Origin: Tritonibacter scottomollicae
GTDB taxonomy: Bacteria; Pseudomonadota; Alphaproteobacteria; Rhodobacterales; Rhodobacteraceae
Assembly: GCF_003003215.1 (NCBI RefSeq)
Contig: NZ_PVUF01000012.1
Location: forward strand, 62,001-126,000
Direction of reading: 5' to 3'
DNA: 64,000 bases
Shown: one piece after another, positions 54,676 to 58,257 of the stretch
Numbering within the stretch: position 1 is the stretch's first letter
How the letters are laid out: the number at the start of each line of letters is the position of its first letter
The notes under the pieces: generated by a model
What the model saw: the letters and a program-made list of their open reading frames with translations, nothing else
What the model was told of the DNA's origin: nothing
Databases searched by the model: none
Made by a program: the position numbers and the translations under genes

Positions 54676-54728
54676 TGGTACGGGCGGCGGGACTCGAACC
54701 CGCACGGCTAAAGCCTGGGGATTTTAAG
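54676..54728 (-). repeat. tRNA-Leu(UAA) 3'-half fragment (probable att site)
   Basis: On the minus strand the sequence contains CTTAAAA (anticodon loop with TAA anticodon), TCCCC (3' half of the anticodon stem), a variable arm GGC-TTTA-GCC, the T arm GCGGG-TTCGAGT-CCCGC, CGCCCGT, A and the encoded CCA. The D arm and 5' acceptor strand are absent: the bases just before CTTAAAA (GCAAT) cannot pair with TCCCC. This is the expected scar of site-specific integration into a tRNA 3' end. The element should lie on the right, with the intact gene at its far end. Confidence 0.85.
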
Positions 54729-55134: not shown

Positions 55135-56463
55135 CTAGTGATGTTCCCCAATTGGCATGTGTTCCGTCTGCGGAACGCCGAAAACAACCATTCTCACATC
55201 TACGGGTGCAGATTTGCTCTTCTTGTGAACCCAATTTCTGTAGTCAGATACTTTTGTCTGGATATCTGCATCCACACTCGCAAAGACTGAAGTCTCGGAG
55301 CAAAATGCGAATGATTTTTGCCACCCATAGACCTTTTTCCCGATAGCTTGAATAACGAAGCTCTCCGACTGGCTCGGCGGCAGTTTCTTACCCTGTGTTA
55401 TCGAGGCATTGATCGCGGCCTTTGATTTCGAAATCATGTCGGAGACGTCTCTGTTCAGTCTTTCAACTGATTTCGCGCTTGGCACGCAGCGCTTTGGTTG
55501 TAACATGCAGCCCAAGAAGTTGATGCTTTGCGGACCACACTCGCCTTCAGCCGCCTTGTCTGAGCCAGGTGAAGGTTTGTACAGTTGAAAGTCAAATGCC
55601 TCTAACCGTTCTTTTGCATGGGCAATGGCTTTTTCTAGTGCCTCCCTATCGGGGGCGACCATTAAGAGGTCGTCAATATACCGTACGGCAGTAACACCTC
55701 CTTGATTCAGTTCCTGGTCTAGTTCGTAGAGCAGTACGTTTCCCGCAAAAGCTGAGAGTGAAGACCCTTGTGCGACACCAATCCCACCGGATGGGAATAG
55801 CTTAGCATATGTTGCCAATTCGTCCTTGTTGGCGAGGTTGACCTCCAATCCGCGAGCAAAAAGTTCTGATAATTTTTCATCACACGTCTCCCTGCGAACA
55901 AAATCGACAACTTGTCCTGTCGGTATCTTGGTAAAGAAGGCCTTGATGTCGGACTGAAAGAAGAAGCGTGAACCATTGTCGACCGCATCATTGATTAGCT
56001 CAATAGCGGGTCTTACTCCGCCATATGGCTTGATCAGACCTCCAACGCCATACTTGGATACGTTGATTTGGTTGATCTTTCCAAGTCGCTCGTCCCGAAG
56101 CGTTTCGTACCTTGTATCGATGTCGCGGGTGTCGCGAGCTCTGCGCGGCTGGAGAACTTGCAAGATCGCTCTTTGAACCACGCGATTTCGAAGCGACGCA
56201 ACGGCAATTGGACGAGGGTTCTTCTTTTGCGCCAGGCGCATTCTCTTGTCTTTGAGCACGCCTGTTACGCCATCGAACACAAATCGGCTTTCTCGCAGCT
56301 GTCGTCCAATCGTCTTAAGGTGGGTTTGGTGGCGGTGCTCGAATTCAGCAGCCTGACCTGCTATTTCACTGTTCGCAGACTTGAGCGCGCTCCTTTTGAC
56401 GTGCCGCCAAGCCGCGAACAGATTTTGTTCGCTGCGCATCTCATCAAAGAGTGTTTTCGTCAT
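55135..56463 (-). CDS. Reverse transcriptase of an unassigned group
   Basis: A 442-residue RNA-directed DNA polymerase. Ordered RT motifs: RPIAVASLRNRVVQRAI (about 84-100), SDIKAFFTKIP with catalytic D172, GIGVAQGSSLSAFAGNVLL (228-245, motif B) and RYIDDLLMV with YIDD at 262-265. The N-terminal 80 residues are helical; residues 340-442 form a thumb/C-terminal region without a maturase, endonuclease or integrase domain. The S-S-L-S-A-F-A-G-N form of motif B differs from the T-P-Q-G-G of group II introns. It may be a defence RT (DRT/UG) or a retron-like RT. The ATG at 56463 follows GGAG. Codon use and G+C differ from the chromosome. Confidence 0.88.
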   Translation of the reverse strand: MTKTLFDEMRSEQNLFAAWRHVKRSALKSANSEIAGQAAEFEHRHQTHLKTIGRQLRESRFVFDGVTGVLKDKRMRLAQKKNPRPIAVASLRNRVVQRAILQVLQPRRARDTRDIDTRYETLRDERLGKINQINVSKYGVGGLIKPYGGVRPAIELINDAVDNGSRFFFQSDIKAFFTKIPTGQVVDFVRRETCDEKLSELFARGLEVNLANKDELATYAKLFPSGGIGVAQGSSLSAFAGNVLLYELDQELNQGGVTAVRYIDDLLMVAPDREALEKAIAHAKERLEAFDFQLYKPSPGSDKAAEGECGPQSINFLGCMLQPKRCVPSAKSVERLNRDVSDMISKSKAAINASITQGKKLPPSQSESFVIQAIGKKVYGWQKSFAFCSETSVFASVDADIQTKVSDYRNWVHKKSKSAPVDVRMVVFGVPQTEHMPIGEHH

Positions 56464-56507
56464 TTCTCCGCTCGGCTCCCCTAGCTCATACAATCGCCGA
56501 CCGTTGA

Positions 56508-56651
56508 CGGGCTTCGACCATCCACTGCGCACGGCATTGCCGCGTACACAGACACCTTGGCAGCAAACGCCACCTTGGCGAGATCGCCTCGGCTTTCGAT
56601 CCGCATCGATGCTTCGAGCTTCACGTCAGACGCCAAGACAATCATGGACGC
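56508..56651. repeat. 144-bp direct repeat, copy A
   Basis: By base-by-base comparison this copy is identical to 56863-57006 over all 144 bases. It begins 44 bases upstream of the reverse transcriptase start. Both copies are open in the same minus-strand frame of 48 codons (MIVLASDVKL...), and copy A also has an upstream extension SWRTGLLACVLAAAS that looks like a hydrophobic signal or membrane segment. Confidence 0.85.
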
Positions 56652-56862
56652 TGCGGCCAGCACGCAAGCGAGCAAGCCGGTACGCCAGCTCAATCGAGCC
56701 GGTTTTTGGGGTTCAGATCACACATTTCCGCGCCTTTCATCTTAACAGGTTTTTGGCCACGTCAAGCGCTTTCCGCCCCGGCCTCGCCCACCACGTAGAA
56801 TGCTTATCAGCCGCCTTGGGGCCACCATGAGATGGTGCATTTACAGCCTCAGAAGCAACGGT
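56652..56862. other. Spacer between the two direct repeats
   Basis: 211 bases. On the minus strand it holds the C-terminal extension after copy B (ends 56737) and the hydrophobic N-terminal extension of copy A. No independent gene is evident. Confidence 0.4.
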
Positions 56863-57006
56863 CGGGCTTCGACCATCCACTGCGCACGGCATTGCCGCGT
56901 ACACAGACACCTTGGCAGCAAACGCCACCTTGGCGAGATCGCCTCGGCTTTCGATCCGCATCGATGCTTCGAGCTTCACGTCAGACGCCAAGACAATCAT
57001 GGACGC
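56863..57006. repeat. 144-bp direct repeat, copy B
   Basis: Exact duplicate of 56508-56651. On the minus strand it continues downstream into a 40-codon extension (to 56737), while its upstream flank differs from that of copy A. This suggests duplication of part of a small gene, or of an RNA leader, next to the reverse transcriptase. Confidence 0.85.
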
Positions 57007-57180: not shown

Positions 57181-58257
57181 GTGGCCGAAAAGAAAAATCA
57201 ACACTTTGTCCCCAAGGTTCATCTCAGGTATTTTGCGAGGGACGATAAAGGACGGCAAATAGACGTCTGGCTCCCCAAGCAAGACAAGGTTGTTAAGGGT
57301 GCGTCGATCAAAAATCAGTGCTCTAAGAGCTACTTTTATGGCAAAGACCTGAAGATCGAGAACTTCTTGAACTCACCGGAAGCGATGTTTGGAAGAACTG
57401 TTGATCAATTGATTGAGTGTGAAAGTGGCGATGACGAGGCGCTTGAGGCTCTTCTTTTTCTATGGCTTCTGCAACACACTCGAGCTGAGAGAACGATCAC
57501 CGAACAATTGTTGGTAATGTCCGCCATGCGCGATAAAGTTTCGCTTGGTCAGGAAGATAACGAAGACCTGCGGGATTGGCTCGGACCGCCTATCGGCGCT
57601 CCAGAAGCAATGCAAATGACGCTGGATAGTGCAAAAGAGTATTTTGACATCATATCTGATCTACGCTGCGTATTGCTAACAAACCAAACAAAGACAGAAT
57701 TTGTGTTGTCTGACTGCCCTGCCGTGTCTTCCAATAAATTGATCTTGAAGCGATATATGAAATACCGCAATTGGGGACTTGGTGGTGCCGGTTTGTACTT
57801 ATACATGCCGCTTACGCCAAAACTTGGCTTCTTTGCTTTTGACAGGCATGCCTATGAACTTGTTTCGAGGAGAGGAAGCACGTGCAATCTGAATGAGCAG
57901 GATGTCGTCGCGTTGAATCAGCTCGTTTATTTGTTCTGCAACGACTTAGTCGTGCTGCCTCCGAACTGCGACACCAATAGTGCAATTAGCCAATTGAAAG
58001 AAGTTGAGGAAGCGAAGCCAGAAAGAACCATGCGGGTAAACATCGCCACAGAAGACGAAGATCAAGCCCGAGAAGGCAGCAAACGGTTTTCTGTCGCATC
58101 TGACGAGGAATTTGCTATCTCGCCCAGAGGAGGCTTGATTCACGTCGAGAGTGTTCCGCCAATAGTGCCCCGTCACTTTCCAAAACTTCGCATTCGGCAG
58201 AACCCGAAATTCATAGACACTCAGTCCGCAGCGGGCCTCAAGCGCTATAGGGCTTGA
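57181..58257 (+). CDS. DUF4238 domain-containing protein
   Basis: A 358-residue soluble protein. The N-terminal KNQHFVPKVHLRYFARDDKG is the hallmark of DUF4238, a family found repeatedly in accessory and defence regions; the biochemical activity is unknown. The internal FVLSDCPAVSSN and LYLYMPLTPKLGFFAFD blocks also match the family pattern. A GTG start is used, after GAGGGACG. The gene is divergent from the reverse transcriptase, with the 144-bp repeats between them. Confidence 0.82.
   Translation: MAEKKNQHFVPKVHLRYFARDDKGRQIDVWLPKQDKVVKGASIKNQCSKSYFYGKDLKIENFLNSPEAMFGRTVDQLIECESGDDEALEALLFLWLLQHTRAERTITEQLLVMSAMRDKVSLGQEDNEDLRDWLGPPIGAPEAMQMTLDSAKEYFDIISDLRCVLLTNQTKTEFVLSDCPAVSSNKLILKRYMKYRNWGLGGAGLYLYMPLTPKLGFFAFDRHAYELVSRRGSTCNLNEQDVVALNQLVYLFCNDLVVLPPNCDTNSAISQLKEVEEAKPERTMRVNIATEDEDQAREGSKRFSVASDEEFAISPRGGLIHVESVPPIVPRHFPKLRIRQNPKFIDTQSAAGLKRYRA

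Follow-up and report, generated by a model that had tools for sequence, protein, structure and literature searches.

A reverse transcriptase (RT) of Tritonibacter scottomollicae, which we treat as a G2L4-type enzyme, is preceded by two identical direct repeats (R) that bracket a spacer (S). We consider it likely that this RT has the repeat-spacer-repeat (R-S-R) as its own template and copies it, slipping by +1, into tandem or circular DNA, yielding a never-ending open reading frame (ORF). The locus lies in a 64,000-nt stretch of contig NZ_PVUF01000012.1 (here called the window; coordinates are positions within it), and the RT and the features assigned to its module are on the minus strand.

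The locus and the identity of its RT

The RT ORF occupies positions 55135 to 56463 (ATG start, 442 amino acids [aa]; an alternative GTG start is possible at 56532). The 44 bp between its ATG and the proximal repeat copy, R_A (56508 to 56651), form a leader that links the two (TL; 56464 to 56507). R_A and the distal copy, R_B (56863 to 57006), are 144 bp each, are 100% identical, and are separated by the 211 bp of S (56652 to 56862), just as an earlier note on this DNA had described. An exact repeat of 144 nt is not chance, and the T. scottomollicae genome (4.68 Mb) contains no copies of it beyond R_A and R_B. A DUF4238 gene (PF14022, 6e-28) lies at 57181 to 58257 on the plus strand, divergent and 174 bp from R_B. 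Other RTs of the clade to which the window RT belongs do not have this gene beside them, and no neighbor other than the R-S-R module recurs near them. At the edge of the RT region, positions 54687 to 54703 (minus strand) match the 3′ end of tmRNA over 17 nt (14.5 bits, under the family cutoff). This match was the only one found in an Rfam search for known RNAs, and it could possibly be an integration scar; the 64-kb window contains no tRNA or tmRNA gene that we could find.

The motifs SDI (D172), AQGSSLSAFAGN, and YIDD were all found in the window RT, which confirms the catalytic motifs D172 and YIDD reported in the earlier note. That note had left the RT unassigned; it instead groups with G2L4 RTs. 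The closest solved structures are G2L4 entries 9d5x and 9d4s (1.7e-47), compared with ~1e-6 for group II intron RTs. YIDD, a distinctive feature of G2L4 RTs (PMC4244168), is present in RT5 of the window RT and of every intact clade RT; the more distant L008 and L015 have FIDD and YLDD, respectively. The G2L4 structure paper further describes AQG, a glycine in RT2a, and FF in RT3 (PMC12337344), and alignment with 9d5x places AQG in RT4, the glycine at 117, and FF at 149/150 of the window RT. The RT3a plug (a 9-aa insertion, R190, R191, and D182) has no counterpart, as the window RT has A, T, and N and two residues fewer, and of the RT0 serines, it keeps S24 and S28 and has A for S29 and N for S30. 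S28 is invariant across seven RTs, and the plug arginines R190 and R191 are retained in L005 of Pseudomonas aeruginosa, which aligns end to end with the solved G2L4 enzyme (2e-119). In a maximum-likelihood tree in which L005 represented the solved enzyme, itself absent from the tree, the window clade, L005/L014, L007, L008, and L015 split from 16 other RTs, including a true UG17 RT (L070), with support of 97/99. Because the plug arginines and two of the four RT0 serines are missing in the window RT, we treat its clade as G2L4-type and sister to the core rather than as a core member.

The window RT fits no named DRT type in PADLOC. It scores 103 bits with the PADLOC UG17 profile, compared with 106 to 132 bits for G2L4-type RTs and 460 bits for L070; since scores with UG17 and UG4 are common to all G2L4-type RTs, they indicate kinship only. 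Scores with Drt2 models were 37 bits (NCBIfam; cutoff, 390) and 36 bits (PADLOC). A retron was ruled out by a score of 37 bits with the St85 model (cutoff, 235) and by the lack of any match to Rfam retron RNAs. The group_II_RT_mat model gave 109 bits (cutoff, 300), no GIIM domain was matched in the window RT, and no Rfam intron RNA was matched nearby; a group II intron, which would have intron RNA and a maturase or endonuclease domain, was thus ruled out, and the statement in the earlier note that such domains are lacking was borne out. A diversity-generating retroelement was also ruled out, as the repeats are identical and show no template/variable-repeat difference at A positions.

Distribution of the R-S-R module

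The repeats are not peculiar to the window but nearly universal in the group, contrary to the refuting condition of the earlier note that all homologous RTs would lack them. In each of the six families sampled, G2L4-type RTs had an R-S-R ahead of them, with R measuring 120 to 144 bp and being 95.6 to 100% identical within a locus. No near-identical upstream repeat was found at any of 23 other RTs (group II, UG17, and others), for some of which only 400 to 800 nt of upstream sequence was available; one of them has a 73% repeat, far upstream. Locus scans yielded 24 genome loci and four viral loci. Among the clade loci with enough upstream sequence (n = 24, including the window), 19 have the pair, one of these with three copies (R-S-R-S-R), and five have a single R. 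Clade R copies are 98.5 to 100% identical within a locus and 74 to 86% identical to the window copy. Five loci farther from the clade (L005, L014, L007, L008, and L015) have pairs of their own, different in sequence, 95.6 to 100% identical, and 346 to 384 nt apart from start to start, and the divergent L092 also carries a pair. A relative at 71% (L006) has a single R copy that is 86% identical to that of the window, and another at 53% (L013) has two copies. Assembly does not account for the pairs, some of which are found on single-contig genomes or in the record of a complete plasmid. L008 (1495 to 3198) combines its repeat pair and FIDD active site with a C-terminal RNase H domain (PF00075, 3.5e-22).

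The RT is intact in two of the five single-R loci; that is, it is broken in 3/5 of these versus 1/20 otherwise (P = 0.016). In L035 (8001 to 12031), the RT frame is broken by insertions of ~1.6 and 1.1 kb, and the repeat pair is retained. A survey of the class (385 genomes) found the RT or a relative in five, scattered over families. Some module loci are on prophage-like contigs, and the RT module of L015 (560 to 6274) sits within an apparent phage structural cluster, with terminase-, portal-, and capsid-like ORFs recognized by eye. Scans of viral contigs with the window RT or L005 as a single query gave no match. Repeat matches in other genomes were discarded as resembling an arsC coding sequence (L010 and L011) or as chance or unclear (L061 and L069).

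Coding constraint, the frame rule, and stray copies

In R_B, S, and R_A, variation among 19 aligned loci is highest at third codon positions. Sliding pN/pS was 0.4 to 0.7 in frame 0 over the interval that begins with R_B and reaches about +280; from about +340 onward and across R_A, a different frame gave 0.4 to 0.6. TL, the stretch after R_A, is noncoding (pN/pS, 1.25), yet it has a mean nucleotide identity of 0.87. The codon-position constraint rules out a purely noncoding RNA, and conservation adjoining the RT in other families rules out a decayed gene fragment. A segment that we call the C-part follows R_B, and another, the N-part, which includes a hydrophobic segment, precedes R_A; the two constraint frames (R_B/C-part and N-part/R_A) lead us to read R and S as one circularly permuted gene. 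The earlier note had offered an RT-linked RNA or remnants of a small gene, and both suggestions were near the mark, since the repeats appear to be pieces of a small gene on a probable template RNA; the coding constraint on repeats and spacer, like the promoter-like sites ahead of the repeat pair and in the spacer, had gone unseen. Only in a tandem (R-S)n or a circle do N-part, R, and C-part join without interruption, and the n = 2 locus L019 carries the contiguous N-R-C frame in its DNA. The product is probably a small secreted or membrane protein. Its predicted structure is a helix and three strands (mean pLDDT, 49), and searches of the composite protein against Pfam and PHROGs found nothing credible.

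A promoter-like site of the TTG-N17 type ends 3 to 12 nt ahead of R_B in most loci, the match being weak in some; in the window, this is P1 (57012 to 57040; TTGAAG, 17 nt, CACTAT), ending 5 nt ahead of R_B. Its position suggests that transcripts may begin at the repeat, much like those of long terminal repeat (LTR) elements. S contains, in order, the C-part, a second promoter-like site, P2 (56739 to 56765; TTGACG, 15 nt, TAAGAT), a conserved ATG (56723 to 56725) that is likely the start codon of the hidden gene, and the N-part. There are two runs of five A residues (A5): A-run 1 (56750 to 56754) lies within the P2 spacer, and A-run 2 (56703 to 56707) lies on the way from the start codon to the N-part. 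Each is kept in 20/20 clade units (S plus R), where they are 47 nt apart with no other A-runs of five or more. RNAalifold predicted many GC pairs across the module, with covariation confounded by coding and repeats, and was relied on solely for a hairpin in S, located after A-run 2 in the clade.

All 20 clade units have an encoded length of 1 mod 3, and none of them (0/20), nor any of the units overall (0/28), is readable all the way round as encoded. With one A added at both A5 runs, 19 of the 20 clade units become divisible by three and stop-free around the circle; the other two frames of the corrected units contain a mean of 6.8 stops. The exception is the R_A of Rhizobium, which has one TAG. 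This in-frame TAG is in the proximal but not the distal R of Rhizobium sp. 2MFCol3.1 (L058), and the same TAG occurs in a decayed copy in R. johnstonii (L012, 5001 to 5118). The rule of one added A per A5 run is obeyed with two runs and a length of 1 mod 3 (L005, L014, and L008), with three runs and 0 mod 3 (L015), and with one run and 2 mod 3 (L092), as well as in two new clade members with two runs (L104 and L097). Overall, 26/28 units conform; L007, with one A5 run, 1 mod 3, and no P2, violates the rule. Two bases placed at random succeeded in 1 to 11% of trials, and shuffled units succeeded in 0.5 to 4% even when their length fit. One added base would also bring the P2 spacing to 16 nt in the window and, across loci, from 15 nt (16 nt in L005) to 16 to 17 nt. 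Since no stop is conserved beyond the C-part, the design resembles a never-ending ORF and not a plain gene.

The start of S (CCGACCGTTG; 56856 to 56865) can pair with CAACGGTCGG in TL (56497 to 56506), and 9 to 13 contiguous pairs can form between these regions in each of six families with differing sequences. In a contiguous-helix test, devised after the pairing had been noticed, the cognate partner was best or tied in every row (combined P = 5e-6); single-family tests were modest (P = 0.004 to 0.07). A duplex energy test of the same regions was mostly not significant, long loops letting shuffled sequences score well. Stray copies of the module bear on both the pairing and the A5 runs. Rhizobium sp. 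2MFCol3.1 has three partial copies (L054, L055, and L056) at unrelated sites, 98.9 to 99.4% identical to its own module and with no target duplications seen, and R. johnstonii has one decayed copy (L012). L054, L056, and L012 all terminate at module base 577/578, where the predicted S/TL pairing has its edge; this edge and the stray-copy ends together predict a cDNA start at about 56507 in the window. L054 and L055 span both A5 runs, and each has A6 at both, compared with A5 at the Rhizobium locus; these two copies come from one strain, have a common 5′ end, and are possibly not independent, and their ends at 291/292 omit half of the C-part. We read the stray copies as putative captured cDNA.

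Proposed mechanism, its rivals, and known systems

We propose that transcription from P1, ahead of the distal repeat, would produce an RNA with the order R_B-S-R_A-TL-RT. Pairing of the start of S with TL would bring the 3′ ends of the two R copies together and have cDNA synthesis begin at the 3′ boundary of R_A, and the RT would then copy R_A, S, and R_B into cDNA. The cDNA end complementary to R could re-anneal to the other R in a strand transfer, or the ends could anneal to give a circle; either would generate (R-S)n. During copying, the RT would add one base per A5 run, which would make the unit divisible by three, put the C-part, start codon, and N-part in a single stop-free frame that continues across all repeats, and shift the internal promoter spacing from 15 to 16 nt to 16 to 17 nt. 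Second-strand synthesis would make the never-ending ORF expressible. Strand annealing and terminal transferase activities have been published for a G2L4 RT (PMC12337344 and PMC13015716), and such an enzyme would be suited to R-to-R strand transfer. We also count the RNase H domain on one relative (L008) in favor of the model. Counting against it are the five single-R clade loci, the departure of L007 from the frame rule, the stop in the Rhizobium R_A, and the break-repair role published for a G2L4 RT. A precedent for a +1 slip comes from potyviruses, in which polymerase slippage inserts an A at a conserved A-run (PMC7618844). By analogy with DRT2, the product of the never-ending ORF would probably be toxic and, given a presumed trigger, would act in abortive phage defense; we put the chance that phage defense is the role of the locus at about even.

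The same protein could formally be made if everything but the agent of the slip were as proposed, with the frame mended at A5 by a slipping RNA polymerase or by ribosomes shifting −1, rather than by the RT. A −1 shift at each A5 run would suffice, A-runs are slippery, and the clade has its hairpin after A-run 2. However, the heptamers (C, T, or G followed by AAA AAC or AAA AAG) are nonclassical, the A6 runs in stray DNA copies could not result from ribosomal shifting, and +1 additionally corrects the promoter spacing; we regard this explanation as unlikely. A slightly less likely one posits two separate small proteins that share R, P1 leading to R_B plus the C-part and P2 to the N-part plus R_A, with gene conversion keeping the repeats alike. 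It would account for coding constraint on both halves in the expected frames and for the ATG codons near the start of R_B in most loci, but the C-part has no conserved stop, the N-R_A frame enters a noncoding, unconserved tail (L018 stops immediately), and the Kordiimonas R_B has no ATG. Two proteins would also leave unexplained why the A5 runs are conserved, why units have the lengths they do, and why the rule holds across families with one, two, or three runs.

More doubtful still is phase variation, in which homologous recombination would alter (R-S)n, the gene would be complete at n = 2, and the RT would be uninvolved. States with n = 0 (L027/L037), n = 1 (most loci), and n = 2 (L019) do occur, and direct repeats of 133 bp readily recombine. 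Even at n = 2, though, the A5 runs disrupt the frame near the start codon and the promoter; moreover, the module is confined to this RT group, and the loci left with a single R are those that tend to have a broken RT. Least probable of all is a role in DNA repair for the RT, like that published for a G2L4 RT, with an unrelated or regulatory module: biochemistry, structures (PMC12337344 and PMC13015716), and sequence kinship speak for it, but the module is present in all six sampled families, including that of L005, close to the studied enzyme (E = 2e-119), and strand annealing and terminal transferase activities fit cDNA joining equally well.

The reading that we prefer, in which the RT makes the gene from its own R-S-R template, has its nearest parallel in DRT2 (UG2) and neo. 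There, too, an RT with an upstream template yields a stop-free ORF through tandem repeat units (PMC12039810 and PMC11100668), each unit has an internal promoter and start codon, and the gene is unreadable in the chromosome. However, DRT2 belongs to another RT group, and its template of 120 nt involves jumps between ACA motifs, whereas direct repeats of 120 to 144 bp bracket a window-type unit of 351 to 384 nt. DRT2 units already have, as encoded, a length that is a multiple of three and no stops (PMC12039810), whereas window-type units need +1 at the A5 runs; in DRT2, the noncoding RNA and the neo mRNA are of opposite strands, whereas window-type coding and template RNAs would have the same sense. 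The P. aeruginosa G2L4 RT (9d4s and 9d5x) shares YIDD, AQG, the RT2a glycine, and the lack of a DNA-binding/endonuclease domain with the window RT (PMC12337344) but differs in having the plug arginines and the two RT0 serines that the latter lacks. Its published role is double-strand break repair (PMC12337344), and a literature search, outside which the 2022 G2L4 break-repair paper fell, found no mention of repeats, a template, or a hidden gene at G2L4 loci.

DRT10 (UG17) gave the best, albeit weak, DRT-type PADLOC profile match, and it synthesizes repetitive cDNA (PMC12632851); in contrast, its 9-nt repeats are made from a short template (PMC12632851), and the true UG17 RT L070 (460 bits) falls outside the G2L4-type group and has no upstream repeats. 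The module resembles LTR retroelements in an RNA that probably starts at R, in having R at both template ends, in the proposed strand transfer via R, and in the RT-RNase H fusion of one relative, but it has no integrase, gag, or transposition, its RT is outside the repeats, and the G2L4 group descends from group II introns. The S/TL pairing is like the a1/a2 stem of retrons in position only.

We found one gene, that of DRT2, that comes into existence solely by reverse transcription, and this locus would provide a second. If the model is correct, the second case would belong to another RT group and have another architecture and an added decoding step, programmed slippage, whose need leaves the chromosome with no readable gene and in which a reverse transcriptase itself performs a coding step. 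The model predicts that unit length plus the number of A5 runs is divisible by three, that the cDNA has six A residues per run, and that cDNA starts at the S/TL pairing; the frames offer a route to finding more hidden genes. We lean toward extending the model to G2L4-type RTs as a family, as gene-making enzymes that, through R-to-R transfer and a programmed +1 slip, would decode a gene stored in circularly permuted form between long direct repeats, its reading frame broken and its promoter incorrectly spaced, the stored repetitive gene being probably toxic. An RT family now filed under DNA repair would then be a maker of hidden genes, and it would gain both a template and a probable effector.
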